A DNA stretch of 33,405 bases from Candidatus Krumholzibacteriota bacterium (lineage in GTDB: Bacteria; Krumholzibacteriota; Krumholzibacteriia; Krumholzibacteriales; Krumholzibacteriaceae): positions 1 to 33,405 of the forward strand of contig JAFGPI010000041.1 of NCBI GenBank assembly GCA_016926065.1. The letters are read 5' to 3'. How positions within the stretch are numbered: position 1 is the first letter of the stretch; every line of letters begins with the position of its first letter. The position numbers were made by a program, and so were the translations under genes. Shown here one piece after another: positions 939 through 18,166 of this stretch. The notes under the pieces are model-generated. The model was not told the origin of the DNA and ran no database searches. It saw nothing but the letters and a program-made list of their open reading frames with translations.

Positions 939-3506
939 TCAATCCTCCTGGCGGGCCGAATCGGCGTCCTCCCCGGATTCCTCCTGCTCTCCGTTATCCA
1001 GATCTTCCTCCCCCGCTTCATTCCGTTCACCGTTATCCTGGTCTTCCTCCTCCGAGCCCTTCCGTTCATCGTCCTCCCGGCCTTCCTCCCCCGCCACCAG
1101 GGCCACGTCGACCACCGAATCCCCCTCGTTTAGATTTATCACCTTGACTCCCTTGGCCGGCCGCCGGATAAGCGATATGCCCAGGGCGGGGCAACGGATT
1201 ATCATCCCGTTCTTGGTCATGATCATGACTTCATCGGTATCCACTACTTCCTTGACCGCTACCAGGTTGCCGTTTCTCTCTCCGGTGGGAATGCACACCA
1301 CCCCTTTGCCCCCCCGCTTGATATTTCTGAACTCACTGATCCTGGTCCTTTTGCCGTAGCCCTTTTCCGTTATGCAGAGAATCTCCGTCTCCCTCTTGAC
1401 TATAACCATTTCCACCACCTTATCATCCCCCGCCAGGGTGACTCCCTTTACCCCCTGGGTGGCCCGGGAGGTTTCCCGGACGTCCTTCTCCTGGAAGCGG
1501 ATGGCCTTCCCGTTGCGCTTGGCCAGTATCACATCGTCGGTTCCCGAGGTCAGCTTGGCCCCGATGAGGCGGTCCCCCTCGCGCAGCAGGATAGCGATTA
1601 TCCCCCCCCGCCGGGGATTGGCGTAGGCCGAGAGGTGGGTCTTCTTAACGAATCCATCCTGGGTAGCCATTACCAGGTAGGCATCCTTCTCGAAATCGCT
1701 CACCGGTATAAAAGCGGTTATATTTTCCTCCCGGGACATCTCCAGGAGGTTGACTATCGCCTTGCCCCGGGCCAGCCGTCCCCCCTGCGGGACCTCATGC
1801 ACCTTCAGCCAGTAGCATTTTCCGGCGTCGGTGAAAAAGAGGATGTAACTGTGGGTGGAGGCGATGAATATCTGCTCCACGAAGTCTTCCTCCTTCATCC
1901 CCATGCCGGTGATTCCCTTGCCTCCTCTTTTCTGGCGACGGTAGGTGCCTACCGGGATCCGCTTTATATAGCCGCTGTGGGTGATGGTAATTATCATGTC
2001 TTCTTCGGCGATGAGATCCTCCAGCTGCAGATCCCCTTCATCATCTATGATCTCTGTTCTTCTCTCATCGTTGAACCGGCCGTTTATGTCGTCCAGCTCG
2101 TCCCGTATCAACCCGAGCAAGCGCGGGCGGCTCTCCAGGATGGACCGGAAGTACTCTATCTTCTGGATAAGCGCCAGGTATTCCTCGTCTATCTTTTTCC
2201 TCTCCAGCCCGGTCAAGCGCTGCAGCTTCAGGTCGAGGATGGCCTGCGCCTGAATGGGGGTAAGGGCGAATTTCTTTACCAGGGCATTCCGGGCCTCGGC
2301 CGGGGAGGCGCTCTTCTTGATCAGGGCTATCACCGCGTCGATGTTATCCAGCGCGATCTTGTAGCCCTCCAGCACGTGGGCCCTTTCCTCCGCCCGTTTC
2401 AGATCGTACTGGGTGCGCCGGGTGACCACCTCCTGGCGGTGATCGAGGAACAGGCTCATCATTTTCTTGAGGTTCATCACCTGGGGTTTGAGCTGGTTCA
2501 GCGCCAGCATGTTTATCCCATAGGTAACCTGGAGCTGGGTGTGCTTGAAAAGCTGGTTGAGGACCACCTTGGGATAGGAATCCTTCTTCAGCTCAATCAC
2601 CATCCGCATGCCGTCCTTGTCGGATTCATCCCGGATGTCGGAAATGCCGGAGAGTTTCTGTCCTCTCACCAGGTCGGCTATCTTTTCTATGATCGCGGCC
2701 TTGTTGGTCTGGTAGGGTATTTCCGTGATCACAATGTTGGTCTTGCCGCTCTTCTGGGTTTCGATATTGGCCCGGGCCCGCAGCAGGATCTTGCCCCTGC
2801 CGGTGCGGTAGGCCTGCTTAATGCCGGCGCGTCCGTATATGATCCCGCCGGTGGGAAAATCCGGTCCTTTAACAATACCGTAAAGCGCTTCCGGCTCCAT
2901 CTCGGGATTATCCAGGACCGCCTTGAGTCCGGCGACGATTTCCCCCAGGTTGTGCGGGGGAATATTGGTGGCCATTCCCACGGCGATCCCCGAGGCGCCG
3001 TTGATCAGCAGGTTGGGCACCTTGGAGGGAAGGACCAGGGCCATTTGCCGGGTTTCGTCGTAATTGGGCCCGAACTCGACCGTCTCCTTGTCTATATCAC
3101 TGAGCAGTTCCTCGGCGATCTCGTGCATGCGGGCTTCCGTGTACCGCTCCGCGGCCGCCGGATCGCCATCTATCGAGCCGAAGTTGCCCTGGCCGTTAAC
3201 CAACGGATAGCGCATCGAGAAATCCTGGGCCAGCCTGACCACCGCATCGTAGACCGAGGCCGTTCCGTGGGGATGATAGTTGCCGGTCACGTCACCCACC
3301 AGTTTCGCCGATTTCCGGTAAGGCCGGTTATGGGCCAGGTTCAGATCGTTCATGGCCAGCAGAATGCGCCGGTGCACCGGTTTCAGACCATCCCGCACGT
3401 CCGGCAGGGCGCGGGATACGATGACGCTCATCGAATAATCGATATAGCTGCTTTTCATCTCGTCTTCGATGTTTACGGGAACGACTCGTTGCCTGCTCAG
3501 TTCCAT
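939..3506 (-). CDS. gyrA: DNA gyrase subunit A
   Basis: [60 protein letters not shown] active-site region; GyrA-box-like QKRGGKG; acidic C-terminal tail. Confidence 0.98.
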
Positions 3507-3564: not shown

Positions 3565-5792
<2,228 letters not shown>

Positions 5793-7028: not shown

Positions 7029-8135
7029 TCAACTGATCCTTAAAGGCATCACGATACATAGGTGTTTTACATCCCCGCTCTGTTCGACGGGCATGATTAT
7101 ACCGGCGTTATCCGGCTTATCCAGGCGCATCTCTATATCGTCGCCGTCAATCGTCTTGAGAATATCCTGAATATATGAGGCGTTATATCCGATATCCATG
7201 GCCGCCGCTGAATAAGAAGCCTCCATCTCCTCCCGGGCTTCACCCAGATCCTGAGTGGTCACGTGCAGGGTTATCTTGTCCGCTTCGATCGAAAAGATCA
7301 CCTGGTGGGTAAGGGCGTCGGATAGAATGGAAACCCTCTTGGTGGCCGCCGCCAGTGATTCCTTGGATATCACCAGTTCCTTGTCGTTCCCCGCCGGTAT
7401 CACCTTCTGGTAGTTGGGAAAGGGGCCTTCCAGCAAACGGGAGTAGATCGAGACATCTTGCATCTCGAAAGAGACGCTGTTGTCCCCCAGGGAAACCCGG
7501 ATTAATTCGTCTTTCTCGGCGTAGGCCTTGAAGGTGGACAGCGCCTTGGGAGGTATGATTACGTTCATCTTCTGTACCTCCCCCATATCCTTCTTTAATT
7601 CCACCTTGGCCAGCCGGTGACCGTCGGTGGAAACCATCACCAGACCGTGGCGGTCCACCTCCCAAAGCACTCCGCACAGGGCCGGCCGGGTCAAATCATT
7701 GGATACGGCATATACCGTCTTGTGAATAAGCTTGCCCAGGATTCCCGAATTTATGGAAAACTCCGTCTTGCTTTCCTGCTGCGGAAGCCGGGGAAAATCG
7801 TCCGGATTTCTTCCATTTACCACGAACTTGCTCTTCCCGCACTTGAGGGTGAGCTTTTCCCCGTCTACTTCCAGCGACACCTCATCCCCGGTCAGGGATT
7901 TCACTATTTCCGCGACCTTGCGGGCCGGAGCGGCGATAGCCCCCTCTTTTTCAGTGGTCCCATTGACCTTCGAAGTAACCGAGATATCCAGATCGGTGGC
8001 GGTAAACTTTATCCCATCCTTATCTGCCTTCACCAGCACCATGGAAAGGATGGGCATGGTTGTTTTTCCGGGAACAACCGATGAGATCGCGTTGAACTTC
8101 TTGTTGAGTTCTCCGAGAGAAACGAGAACTTTCAC
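7029..8135 (-). CDS. dnaN: DNA polymerase III subunit beta (sliding clamp)
   Basis: VKVLVSLGELNKKFNAISSVVPGKTTMPILSMVLVKAD...; C-terminal MPLRIS. Start set to the GTG at 8135, which has AGGAGGT upstream; the tracked start is at 8165. Confidence 0.95.
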   Translation of the reverse strand: MKVLVSLGELNKKFNAISSVVPGKTTMPILSMVLVKADKDGIKFTATDLDISVTSKVNGTTEKEGAIAAPARKVAEIVKSLTGDEVSLEVDGEKLTLKCGKSKFVVNGRNPDDFPRLPQQESKTEFSINSGILGKLIHKTVYAVSNDLTRPALCGVLWEVDRHGLVMVSTDGHRLAKVELKKDMGEVQKMNVIIPPKALSTFKAYAEKDELIRVSLGDNSVSFEMQDVSIYSRLLEGPFPNYQKVIPAGNDKELVISKESLAAATKRVSILSDALTHQVIFSIEADKITLHVTTQDLGEAREEMEASYSAAAMDIGYNASYIQDILKTIDGDDIEMRLDKPDNAGIIMPVEQSGDVKHLCIVMPLRIS

Positions 8136-8342
8136 GCCTTTACCTCCTGAATCATCTAGGCACACAAATATTCCGGTTCTGAAATCACGTTAGGGAATCG
8201 AATCATAATTTAAACCGGACTATTCTTCAAGGAAAAAGAGGTCCGGTGAAAGACAGTAGGAGATGAAATAAAAGAATATTTTTATATCTTCAACCGGCGG
8301 GGATGGGGAGGCGGTACAACTACTCTTATGTTAATAGCTAGA

Positions 8343-8370
8343 TAGCAGCAGAAGTAGAAGGTGTGGATAT
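8343..8370 (+). promoter_or_regulatory. Candidate oriC unwinding element: DnaA-trio-like run next to a DnaA box
   Basis: TAG-CAG-CAG-AAG-TAG-AAG (8343-8360), G, then TGTGGATAT (8362-8370; reverse complement ATATCCACA, one mismatch from TTATCCACA), in the dnaA-dnaN spacer. Confidence 0.55.
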
Positions 8371-8480
8371 GTTGAAAGAAGGGGGAAGGCCCCGGAGGAA
8401 GAGAGGATTGTTCCCTCCCGCGCCTGTGGGGGGAGAGGTGAGGAAGAGACAGATATCAATAGTTTTGAAGGCGGGGCGGG

Positions 8481-8535
8481 TTACTCACATACTCCCCACA
8501 GGGAATCAACAGGGGGGTGTGTAAAATGTGGAAAG
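8481..8535. promoter_or_regulatory. Cluster of degenerate DnaA-box-like 9-mers in the dnaA-dnaN spacer
   Basis: TTACTCACA (8481-8489, +); minus-strand TTTTACACA (8526-8518) and CTTTCCACA (8535-8527) directly abutting. Confidence 0.45.
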
Positions 8536-8553
8536 AGGAGGCGAAATGATTTG

Positions 8554-9942
8554 CTAGGAACGGGTGAGCTCCTGGCGTATGGTTTGAATCCTCTTTCTCA
8601 GGGAGGGATCGTCCGCGGCAAGTTTTTCGACCTTGCGCAGGGAATGAAGGACCGTGCTGTGGTCGCGGCCGCCGAAGCTTTTGCCGATCTGCACCAGGGA
8701 GAGAGAGGTCAATTCGCGGGCGAGGTAGATAGCTACCTGGCGGGCCAGCACTACGCGGCTGATACGGGTCTTGGCCCTCAGGCTCTCGGCGGGAACGTCA
8801 AAATGCTGGGAGATCGATTGCTGTATGCTTTTGACGGAGATCTTGGTCGCGCCGCCGCGCATGATGTCCTTCAGCACTTCCAACGCCATATCGGGGGTGA
8901 TTTCGCGGCAATTTATGCTGGAATGGGCAAGGATCCTGATAAGCGAGCCCTCCAGTTCCCGGATGTTGCTCTTCACGTTTTCCGCGATCACCTGGATAAC
9001 GCTGGCCGGGATGTGAATGCGCTCTTTCTCCACTTTTTTGGAAAGGATGGCGATCCGGGTTTCCAGGTCCGGGGGCTGGATGTCGGTGGTAAGGCCCCAT
9101 TCGAAGCGGGAAACGAGCCTTTCCTGCAGGGTGGGTATCTCCTTGGGGGGTCGGTCGCTGGTGCACACGATCTGGCGGTTGGCGTCGTAGAGGGAGTTGA
9201 AGGTGAAGAAAAATTCCTCCTGGGTGCTCTCCTTACCGGCCAGGAAATGGATGTCGTCTATAAGCAGGATATCTATATCTCTGTATTTCTTTTTAAATTC
9301 TAGTGTTGAGCCCGTTCTGATGGCGTGGATCAACTCGTTGACAAAGCTCTCGGTGGAAACGTAGGAAATCCTCATGGCGGGGTGTTCTTCCCGCACGAAA
9401 TGACCTATGGCCTGCAAAAGATGGGTCTTACCCAGTCCGGCCCCGCCGTAGATGAAAAGGGGATTGTAGGTGGACGCCGGTTTTTCCGCCACCGCCAGGG
9501 CCGCCGCGTGGGTGAGCCGGTTTCCGCTCCCGGCCACGAATTCGCTGAAGGTGTAGCGGGGATTCAGCCGCAGATTATCGTTCTGGGCCGCCGGACGGGG
9601 CGCGGGGGAGGGGCGCAGGGGAGGCCGGGAGGGAGGGGTAACCCGGGAGGCCGAGGGGGAAGCCTTGAACTCTATATTTACCTTCTCTCCCAGGACTTCA
9701 TGGGCGGCGGATTGAATCTTGTCGATATGATGCTCCGCCAGCCAGTCTATAAAGAAGGTGTTGGGGCCCTCGATACAGATCGAGCCGTTTTCGTAGCCCA
9801 CCAGGCGGGTGGGCTTGAACCAGGTCTGAAATGATTGGTTGTTGACCACGGCGCAGATCTTTTTCAGGATTGCTTCCCAGATCTGGAGCAAAGACTCGGG
9901 GCCTGACAGGCACCCACCGGTGGCTTCTTTCCCAGTTTCCAT
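8554..9942 (-). CDS. dnaA: Chromosomal replication initiator protein DnaA
   Basis: NPLFIYGGAGLGKTHLLQAIGH Walker A; IDILLIDDIHFLAGKESTQEEFFFTFN Walker B; GGRDHSTVLHSLRKVEKL domain IV signature. The tracked start is 9984; the internal ATG at 9942 is an equally plausible start. Confidence 0.97.
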   Translation of the reverse strand: METGKEATGGCLSGPESLLQIWEAILKKICAVVNNQSFQTWFKPTRLVGYENGSICIEGPNTFFIDWLAEHHIDKIQSAAHEVLGEKVNIEFKASPSASRVTPPSRPPLRPSPAPRPAAQNDNLRLNPRYTFSEFVAGSGNRLTHAAALAVAEKPASTYNPLFIYGGAGLGKTHLLQAIGHFVREEHPAMRISYVSTESFVNELIHAIRTGSTLEFKKKYRDIDILLIDDIHFLAGKESTQEEFFFTFNSLYDANRQIVCTSDRPPKEIPTLQERLVSRFEWGLTTDIQPPDLETRIAILSKKVEKERIHIPASVIQVIAENVKSNIRELEGSLIRILAHSSINCREITPDMALEVLKDIMRGGATKISVKSIQQSISQHFDVPAESLRAKTRISRVVLARQVAIYLARELTSLSLVQIGKSFGGRDHSTVLHSLRKVEKLAADDPSLRKRIQTIRQELTRS

Positions 9943-10013
9943 TCGCGCTTTCAAGGGGACAGTTATCCCCAGGAAAAAGATCAATTTTTCTCGCAGCTCA
10001 AGCTTTCCACATT

Positions 10014-10022
10014 TGTGGATAA
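10014..10022 (-). promoter_or_regulatory. Perfect consensus DnaA box (TTATCCACA on - strand)
   Basis: TGTGGATAA on + strand, 72 nt upstream of the dnaA ATG at 9942. Nearby variants: CTTTCCACA 10003-10011, TTTTCCACA 10082-10090, TTATCCCCA 9963-9971. Confidence 0.75.
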
Positions 10023-10370
10023 CTCGGTAATTTATTTAATTACAGCTTGTTTGGCGGGTCGTTTAATATGGTGACAGAGCTTTTTCCACATTTTCCCAGC
10101 GAGCGGAGTATTTATGGCAATTCTTGGAGAAGCTTGAAATAGGTCACTCCCCTCATCCCGCGGACGGTAATCTATCATATGGGGACGAAATATATCAAGA
10201 GGTTTTTTTCGACCCGGGGAAAATAATTTCAAAAGGTTGGGATATATGGAAATACAATTTAAGATAAAGCTTAAGGGGGGAATGGCCGGAGAGGGAGGCC
10301 CGGGAGGCTCCGGGAGGAAGGGTGGAAGGGAAAGAAAAAAAAAGAGTTAAAATTTGAAGAAATAAAAAAC

Positions 10371-10399
10371 TTGACAAAAAAAAACGGGTTTTCTATTGT
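10371..10399 (+). promoter_or_regulatory. Candidate sigma-70-type promoter for rpmH-rnpA-yidD-yidC
   Basis: TTGACA (10371-10376), 17-nt spacer, TATTGT (10394-10399); 80 nt upstream of the rpmH ATG, in AT-rich DNA. Confidence 0.55.
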
Positions 10400-10478
10400 A
10401 AGTTGTTTATATTTAGCTAAGGAATAAGCGGGGAAATAGGAAATCGGAAAATCGGGGGAGATGGAAAAAGGAAAATAA

Positions 10479-10613
10479 ATGAAACGCACATATCAGCCGC
10501 ATAATAAGAGAAGAAAAAGGAATCACGGTTTCAGAAAAAGGATGAGTACCAAGAACGGCCGCATGATCCTCAAAAGAAGGAGGGCGAGAGGAAGAAAGAG
10601 GTTGGCGGTTTAG
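10479..10613 (+). CDS. rpmH: 50S ribosomal protein L34
   Basis: Hand translation: [44 protein letters not shown]. Absent from the ORF track because it is only 44 aa. Confidence 0.97.
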
Positions 10614-13840: not shown

Positions 13841-15202
13841 ATGTATGGTGACACGGTTGTCGCCTTGAGCACGCCCCCGGGGGAGTCCGGAATAGCGGTG
13901 GTCAGGATGTCCGGCCGGGAAGCGGTGAAGATTCTCTCCGGAATGATCCCGGACGCGCACACCTGGGAAACCCATAAAATCCATAAGAGAAAGATTCGCG
14001 GAACAGACGGAAATCTCATTGACGAAGTGCTGGCCGTGATCATGAGGGCCCCCGATTCTTACACGGGCGAGGATGTGGTGGAGATATCCTGCCACGGGAG
14101 CATGCTCATAATAACCGAGCTGATAGAGGAACTTATTGCCCGGGGAGCGGTGGTTGCCGGCCCGGGGGAGTTTACCAAAAAGGCCTATCTAAACGGGAAA
14201 ATCGACCTGGTCCAGGCCGAGGCGGTGGCCGATCTGATAGCGGCCGAAACAAGACTGCAGAGCCTGGTGGCCCTGGAGCATCTGGGGGGAGGGCTCTCGC
14301 GAAAGGTGAGGGAGGTGGAGGATAAGCTGCTGGAGCAGCTTTCCCTGGTGGAGGTGTCGATTGACTTTTCGCAGGAGGACATAGAAACCTGGAGCGCCGC
14401 GGAGCTGACGGAGGTTTCACGTGAAATAAGGAAGAAATTGCGTTCCCTCATAGAGTCGGAGGTGGCGGGGAAAAAGCTTAGAAGAGGCATAAGGATAACC
14501 CTCCTGGGGCCCCGGAATGCGGGAAAGAGCAGCCTCTACAATGCCCTGCTGGGAGAAGAACGGGCCATCGTATCATCCATACCCGGAACCACCCGGGATC
14601 TTTTACGGGAAAGGATTCATATCGGGGGTTTCACCTTCTATCTGGAGGATACCGCCGGGATTGCAGAAACCGGCTGTGAGATAGAGAACCGCGGCATTTC
14701 GATCGGCAGGGAGGCGGCGAGAATAGCCGACCTGGTGCTCTTCGTGATTGACGGGAACTCCGGATGTGAAGCGCAGGAGGAGCGGGAGCTGGCACGGATG
14801 GGACACCGGGAAGTGATAGTGGTGCTGAACAAGAAAGACCTGGGGCTGCGGGAAGATGAGAGCAAGGTCTCGGTCCGGCTGGGCGGAGTAAAGGCGGTGG
14901 CCCTTTCGGCCAAGGAGGGAGAGGGGCTGGATAAGCTGCGGGAGGAGATCTTCTCCCGGGCGGTAATGAGCAGCGCCGCCGATCTTTCCCGGGAAAGGAT
15001 AGCCCTGAACGCCCGGCAGGCGGCCTCGCTGGCGGAAGCGGAACGGACGCTGGAGAAACTGGAGCGGGAGATGGACAAGGGCGCCGAAATCTTAAGCCTT
15101 TATATCCGGGAGGCTTTGGAGGCCTGCGGCAGGGTGACCGGGCGGGCGGCGGCCGAGGAGCTGCTGGATACGATATTCAATAGGTTCTGTATCGGCAAGT
15201 AG
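13841..15202 (+). CDS. mnmE: tRNA uridine-5-carboxymethylaminomethyl(34) synthesis GTPase MnmE
   Basis: DTVVALSTPPGESGIAVVRMSG; GPRNAGKSSLYNALLGEERAIVSSIPGTTRD; C-terminal FNRFCIGK. Confidence 0.97.
   Translation: MYGDTVVALSTPPGESGIAVVRMSGREAVKILSGMIPDAHTWETHKIHKRKIRGTDGNLIDEVLAVIMRAPDSYTGEDVVEISCHGSMLIITELIEELIARGAVVAGPGEFTKKAYLNGKIDLVQAEAVADLIAAETRLQSLVALEHLGGGLSRKVREVEDKLLEQLSLVEVSIDFSQEDIETWSAAELTEVSREIRKKLRSLIESEVAGKKLRRGIRITLLGPRNAGKSSLYNALLGEERAIVSSIPGTTRDLLRERIHIGGFTFYLEDTAGIAETGCEIENRGISIGREAARIADLVLFVIDGNSGCEAQEERELARMGHREVIVVLNKKDLGLREDESKVSVRLGGVKAVALSAKEGEGLDKLREEIFSRAVMSSAADLSRERIALNARQAASLAEAERTLEKLEREMDKGAEILSLYIREALEACGRVTGRAAAEELLDTIFNRFCIGK
14414..14427. promoter_or_regulatory. 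parS-like site inside mnmE
   Basis: GTTTCACGTGAAAT, one mismatch at the last base from the three perfect GTTTCACGTGAAAC sites downstream. Confidence 0.6.
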
Positions 15203-17832: not shown

Positions 17833-17836
17833 GAGC

Positions 17837-17850
17837 GTTTCACGTGAAAC
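17837..17850. promoter_or_regulatory. parS site 1
   Basis: Perfect 14-bp palindrome GTTTCACGTGAAAC. Confidence 0.93.
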
Positions 17851-17882
17851 GGAAGGCGGCGGGATCTAATTTCTCCCCGGGA

Positions 17883-17896
17883 GTTTCACGTGAAAC
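17883..17896. promoter_or_regulatory. parS site 2
   Basis: GTTTCACGTGAAAC, preceded by CTCCCCGGGA. Confidence 0.93.
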
Positions 17897-17929
17897 AGCG
17901 GCCTAAAGAGGAGATATTCCTCCCCGGGA

Positions 17930-17943
17930 GTTTCACGTGAAAC
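17930..17943. promoter_or_regulatory. parS site 3
   Basis: GTTTCACGTGAAAC, preceded by the same CTCCCCGGGA; 47 bp from site 2. Confidence 0.93.
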
Positions 17944-18166
17944 AAAAGGACTGGACTCGAGGACTAAAAATCTAGGATTTGGATCTTATTATATTGCAAA
18001 TGATCAGCCAGCACTTGTTTTTATAATATTCAAGCGGTATGTTTCTCTGGAGGCCGGTGCCGTGGATCAGCGCAACGACTGGCGCCGCATCATGCTCTTT
18101 TTTATTGCTTTCTAAAAGAGCCGAACCTATAATCGCTAGGCCCACCAGATGATCAAGGAGTAGGGA

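Follow-up and report, generated by a model that had tools for sequence, protein, structure and literature searches.

The question raised by this locus is where the chromosome of a Krumholzibacteriota bacterium is opened for replication, and how the DNA at that place is built. We analyzed a stretch of 33,405 nucleotides (hereafter, the window), which is contig G000:C100 of a genome of 3.0 Mb in 244 contigs. Its DnaN protein is 70% identical to that of the closest named relative found, a Candidatus Krumholzibacteriia MAG. On the minus strand, the gene order is dnaA (8554–9942; PF00308, PF08299, PF11638, and TIGR00362 above cut-off), a spacer (8136–8553), dnaN (7029–8135; PF00712/PF02767/PF02768), recF, dciA (5481–5792; PF05258, E = 2.2 × 10−22), gyrB, and gyrA. 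The dciA product is a candidate helicase loader. To the right of dnaA, the plus strand carries rpmH, rnpA, yidC, jag, mnmE, mnmG, rsmG, and parAB; the names of all genes other than dnaA, dnaN, and dciA were assigned by reading the translations. Our analysis indicates that positions 8320–8378, in the dnaA–dnaN spacer, are very probably the unwinding site of the chromosome origin, in the form of a Bacillus-type basal unwinding system (BUS). The anatomy, conservation, and position of this element were observed directly, and we infer that unwinding takes place at it because of its likeness to BUS elements that have been tested.

On the plus strand, the site reads TTAATAGCTAGA (8331–8342), TAG (8343–8345), CAG, CAG, AAG, TAG (ending at 8357), AAG (8358–8360), G (8361), and TGTGGATAT (8362–8370), exactly the sequence and coordinates (8331–8370) given in the initial annotation of this DNA. 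In the sense of dnaA, from 8378 to 8343, it consists of two DnaA boxes with a 1-nt overlap, a CCTT step, and the trios CTA CTT CTG CTG CTA. The one-mismatch box described there as abutting the triplets was recovered as box 2 (ATATCCACA, minus strand, 8362–8370), which differs at one position from TTATCCACA and recurs in relatives. Box 1 (CTTTCAACA, minus strand, 8370–8378) is weak, with 3 mismatches. In relatives, its position is occupied by TTATCAACA or TTATCCACA, and the segment holding it contained a direct box in 38 of 48 spacers.

The same annotation counted six in-register triplets. Five of them hold as DnaA-trios (TAG CAG CAG AAG TAG, plus strand, 8343–8357), which are backed by the sequence, by relatives, and by shuffles. 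The sixth, the AAG nearest the box, was assigned to the 4-nt step CCTT (minus strand, 8358–8361), because the gap between box and trios is 4 nt in most relatives, and the six-trio reading was dropped. The step occupies the position of GGCC in B. subtilis (PMC8235120). Two of the trios are CAG, which had been noted as a departure from the strict consensus. They are indeed present; the concern is minor, since CAG retains the G and A that are the captured bases of each trio in the cryo-EM structure (PMC10721633), and CAG is also found among the H. pylori trios (PMC10316083).

The AT-rich tract at 8265–8290, noted beyond the triplets in the initial annotation, was rejected as the melting core, because the AT peak directly adjoins the trios in relatives. 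The core homologous to theirs is the adjacent 8329–8342, probably the first DNA to melt; AT content just past the trios is moderate in the window itself and 78–86% in relatives. The far tract lies upstream of a likely dnaN promoter, and it may be a part of it. This promoter (minus strand, 8202–8230) is a good one of the sigma-70 type, with TTGAAG (8225–8230) and TATGAT (8202–8207) separated by 17 bp, and a similar TTGA...TATGAT arrangement occurs in the spacers of relatives.

BUS elements have been searched for with a DnaA box of at most 2 mismatches and a tandem partner of up to 4 (PMC8287927), and with at least three in-register NAN trios at most 16 bp from the box. By those published criteria, 85% of 2070 origins contain such an element (PMC8287927). 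In the window, the boxes ATATCCACA and CTTTCAACA have 1 and 3 mismatches, respectively, and five in-register NAG trios start 4 nt from the box. DNA past the trios was classed as AT-rich on the AT content of relatives, and the location agrees, given the dnaA–dnaN spacer in relatives and the skew turn described below. The DnaA residues that hold trios and single-stranded DNA are N187, I190, I193, R202, K222, E228, and R264 in B. subtilis numbering (PMC10721633, PMC8287927). We compared the window DnaA with two Bacillota DnaA proteins, with the numbering mapped by motif, and found that all equivalents were identical (N187, I190, I193, K222, E228, and R264) except R202, which is replaced by K.

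Tandem boxes, a 4-nt step, in-register trios, AT-rich DNA, place, and orientation are all shared with the BUS of B. subtilis oriC (incC: DnaA-boxes 6/7, GGCC, DnaA-trios; PMC6669920, PMC8287927, PMC8235120). The B. subtilis-like order and orientation between dnaA and dnaN claimed for this spacer at the outset are upheld. However, B. subtilis has six trios and the window five, the proximal box in the window is ATATCCACA and its box 1 is weak, and the window has an extra mirrored trio-like array past the AT core. The corresponding elements are TTATCCACATTTCCACA GCCC CTA TTA CTA CTA CTA in the Priestia megaterium spacer and TTATCCACAGGTTCCACA GGCC CTA CTA CTA TTA CTT in that of Latilactobacillus curvatus. 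Overlapping tandem boxes are common to the window, its relatives, and Priestia, and with Priestia as the control, the geometry of the element in the phylum equals that of the Bacillota BUS. Helicobacter pylori oriC2 likewise belongs to a bipartite origin flanking dnaA and has trios that include CAG (PMC10316083, PMC8235120), but its DnaA-box consensus and box arrangement are different.

Conservation was explored in dnaA–dnaN spacers taken from about 48 genomes of the phylum. These spacers are otherwise highly divergent; most of them contain, in the sense of dnaA, (TTATCAAC)ATATCCACA, 4 nt, five CTN triplets, and AT-rich DNA. A gap allowed to vary from 0 to 8 between box and trios came out best at 4 in most scored spacers, and lines anchored on the element concur. 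Eleven spacers were anchored by eye, no anchor could be set in one (L058), and family f5 and a few others have more degenerate trios. Thus, the check suggested in the initial annotation came out positively, with triplet register, box, and 4-nt spacing recurring in the same spacer across families. A strict pattern derived from the family had one match, with 0 mismatches, in the genome of the window (3.02 Mb). Allowing at most 2 mismatches, it was present in 19 of 80 genomes, with a single match in each and always in the spacer beside dnaN; part of the same family had served to derive it, so the number of matching genomes is not independent. The reversed control had no match in the 80 genomes. 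Despite the origin of the pattern, the uniqueness of the match in each genome and the lack of control matches carry information.

An Omnitrophota locus (L040) was tried as an out-group and rejected, because the gene ahead of dnaN in it is, on reading the sequence, of the folate type and not dnaA. In two genomes of family f5 (L049 and L059), a methyltransferase-like coding sequence of about 700–800 bp, recognized by reading its translation frame, lies between dnaA and the trio element, and the box–trio element still adjoins dnaN.

These results extend a Bacillus-type unwinding site, with equal spacing, to an uncultured phylum. In the openly licensed literature, we found no paper that names both Krumholzibacteriota and oriC. 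The element is very probably an additional member of the DnaA-trio BUS system and, given a mirrored array, probably a new variant.

This array was absent from the initial annotation. It is a second array of NAG triplets on the opposite strand, typically 14–25 nt past the trios, and it faces them in the opposite direction with the AT core between. Past the trios, AT rises up to 78–86%, and then A and G prevail, with 75–79% purine at +18 to +30. A NAG block scoring at least 6.2 was found at +8 to +34 nt past the trios in 36 of 45 spacers, compared with one spacer at +50 to +76 and none at either control position left of the boxes (45 spacers each); these figures are descriptive and not pre-registered, because the block was already known when the scoring was drawn up, and they do not count independent events, the genomes being related. 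Local dinucleotide shuffles that kept the purine content gave 12.2 ± 2.6 in place of the 36. Pairs of AG dinucleotides were over-represented at distances of 3 nt (60 observed, 22 expected; z = 9.6) and 6 nt (z = 3.5), which argues for a triplet register beyond mere purine richness. Moreover, the best NAG run of the whole spacer lay at +8 to +42 in 37 of 48 spacers, where 11% would be expected.

The window copy (TAA GAG TAG, minus strand, 8328–8320, at +14) is one of the weaker copies of this phylum-wide element, so its assignment rests on homology. We rejected the idea that the array has an inverted DnaA box of its own, which was present in only 5 of 47 spacers. We also rejected the idea that the array belongs to all BUS elements. 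It was not found in the spacers of Priestia megaterium or Latilactobacillus curvatus, and a mirrored block was present in 11 of 29 viral BUS-like elements of a first set (0 at the control position), 2 of 8 in a second, and 0 of 22 in a third. The viral counts imply that the two-sided form exists outside the phylum and is not general. Searches of openly licensed papers, and passages of a 2026 review, yielded no account of such an array opposite the trios.

The element very probably works in the manner of tested BUS elements. Two DnaA molecules would bind the overlapping boxes (8362–8378), and more DnaA-ATP would spread over the 4-nt step onto the plus strand, capturing the G and A of the five trios from 8357 down to 8343. 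The duplex would then open into the AT-rich core (8342–8329). With the core open, DnaA may engage the mirrored array on the other strand and so mark this second strand, with one helicase placed on each strand together with DciA. The means by which a bacterial origin comes to have a helicase on each of its strands has been named as an unsolved problem (PMC10721633). We tentatively suggest that the array holds DnaA on the second strand for the second helicase and may thus help to start the second replication fork, a step that we regard as slightly more doubtful than probable. What stands against it is that the array is weak in the window, usually has no box, and is absent in the two Bacillota controls. 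It is conceivable, and short of probable, that the two facing arrays give DnaA a specific single-stranded track on each strand of a single bubble and thereby encode the placement of both helicases. Being conserved and located on the opposite strand, the array offers a concrete DNA element through which the question of the second helicase becomes testable.

Two known systems bear on this proposal. The DUE of Thermotoga maritima contains an eTrio, in which DnaA binds TAG repeats on a single strand of AT-rich DNA (PMC10316083); it is away from the box and on the same strand, whereas the extra array of Krumholzibacteriota is on the opposite strand. The DnaD recognition element (DRE) of B. subtilis is likewise a signal within the origin itself, for which a role in assigning the second strand its helicase has been proposed (PMC10201434). 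However, the DRE is formed by the trios' own complement, whereas the array is a separate block past the AT core, and its phylum yielded no DnaD domain. The DnaD domain (PF07261) was detected in none of 58 genomes of the phylum and was detected in the B. subtilis control, so the published DnaD/DRE route, which calls for a DnaD homologue, is unavailable by this test. DciA was present in 56 of the 58 genomes. What bacteria without DnaD do is a question raised in the DnaD paper (PMC10201434). If the two-strand step is true, the mirrored array does, with DciA and no detected DnaD, what the DRE is proposed for in Bacillus.

It may also be explained that the purine block acts through its pyrimidine complement (CTNCTN, plus strand) in a DRE-like manner, for a loader or another single-stranded DNA-binding protein and not for DnaA. 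In its favor, TnnT motifs on the strand complementary to the trios form a loader site in B. subtilis (PMC10201434), and CTNCTN includes TnnT. The reader could be DciA or some unknown protein, and in most genomes no DnaA box flanks the block. However, the phylum has no detected DnaD domain, the block retains the in-register NAG form of DnaA-trios, and in the viral contig L104 the block is accompanied by an inverted box, likewise 4 nt away, as expected for true trios. We consider this explanation unlikely, though it deserves to be kept in view.

A further reading is that the trios pair with the mirrored block as arms of a hairpin or cruciform, and that this structure is what matters. The arms are well complementary in a few genomes, mainly of family f7 (11 bp in L035 and 9 bp in L044), but in many genomes only 3–5 bp can pair. 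Arms of one genome paired barely better than arms exchanged between genomes (two measures; p = 0.055 and 0.037), so that co-variation is too slight to make a case for a hairpin. The structure is not supported as a general rule, and we judge this reading improbable.

The place of melting is a separate matter. DnaA boxes occur in both spacers flanking dnaA, as in bipartite origins of the B. subtilis and H. pylori type. The dnaA–rpmH spacer (9946–10479; 60% AT) has three boxes with 0–1 mismatch (9963–9971, 10014–10022, and 10082–10090), compared with one of at most 1 mismatch in the dnaA–dnaN spacer. Melting could thus occur there, with the element on the dnaN side being accessory or regulating dnaN. 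However, the dnaA–rpmH spacer contains no trio run beside a box, and it is the trio element that is conserved at a fixed spacing.

Composition also speaks on this point. The GC skew at third positions of the coding strand was −0.25 in dnaA, the sole negative value among 15 window genes (the others ranged from 0.00 to +0.34). Across the phylum, it was negative in dnaA in 47 of 47 genomes and lower than in dnaN in 43 of 47 (Wilcoxon test, p = 5 × 10−11, uncorrected for relatedness). This result favors initiation in the dnaA–dnaN spacer, since a negative skew is expected if a fork leaves this spacer and, coming from the dnaN side, runs head-on through dnaA. The skew of dnaN is also slightly negative in some families, and the composition of dnaA may stem partly from its coding constraints. 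The cumulative skew turns on the dnaN side as well, with a minimum in the window at 8040 and near-equal values up to 8231, that is, at the 5′ end of dnaN or in the spacer. In the single-contig relative G006, the minimum (2,838,990) was about 110 bp from its motif. The genome-wide GC skew was flat or mixed in G006 and two other single-contig relatives, G036 and G042 (18–20 kb samples), and the latter two showed no clear local turn. G006 combines a nearly flat or mixed genome-wide skew with a sharp local turn at the element, as in the window.

Melting in the dnaA–rpmH spacer is thus very improbable, and the initial placement of the melting site on the dnaN side is supported by conservation, by skew, and by the lack of box-adjacent trios on the other side. 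The boxes clustered upstream of dnaA probably form the second lobe of a bipartite origin. We further found four parS-like sites (GTTTCACGTGAAAC, at most 2 mismatches) in the window against 0.02 expected, three of them clustered at 17836–17944 before parAB and one at 14413–14428, and the nearby cluster supports an origin-proximal region. Finally, a chance run of triplets can practically be discarded; the plus strand is rich in purines around the site, but AGNAGNAGNAGNAGNNNNTGTGGATAA, with at most 3 mismatches allowed, matched just once in the window, with 1 mismatch, where 100 shuffles gave an expectation of 0.00, and the phylum-wide conservation at one position refutes it.

Similar elements were found in viral contigs. 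The pattern TCCACA-4-CTACTACTACT, a box, 4 nt, and trios, matched 35 stretches in IMG/VR compared with 6 for a composition control, about six times as many. Many of the matches have tandem boxes and a GGCC-like step. A strict symmetric pattern, with three AG triplets on the right, had no match in the viral contigs, and a looser one matched L104 alone (IMGVR_UViG_3300013101_000041; 79–745). L104 carries a complete, symmetric double element at 680–745, in the order box, GGCT, trios, AT, trios on the opposite strand, AGCC, and inverted box, and about 185 bp away a 138-aa ORF encodes DnaA domain IV by itself (PF08299). In L118 (3122–3449), a DnaA domain IV-like ORF (E = 4 × 10−14, home-made profile) directly adjoins the box–trio element at 3429. 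Stand-alone DnaA-domain proteins beside box–trio elements may represent a type of phage origin that hijacks DnaA. L115 (129–360) has, near phage-like genes, a DnaA-box cluster, a mirrored array, and a box–trio element like that of Krumholzibacteriota.
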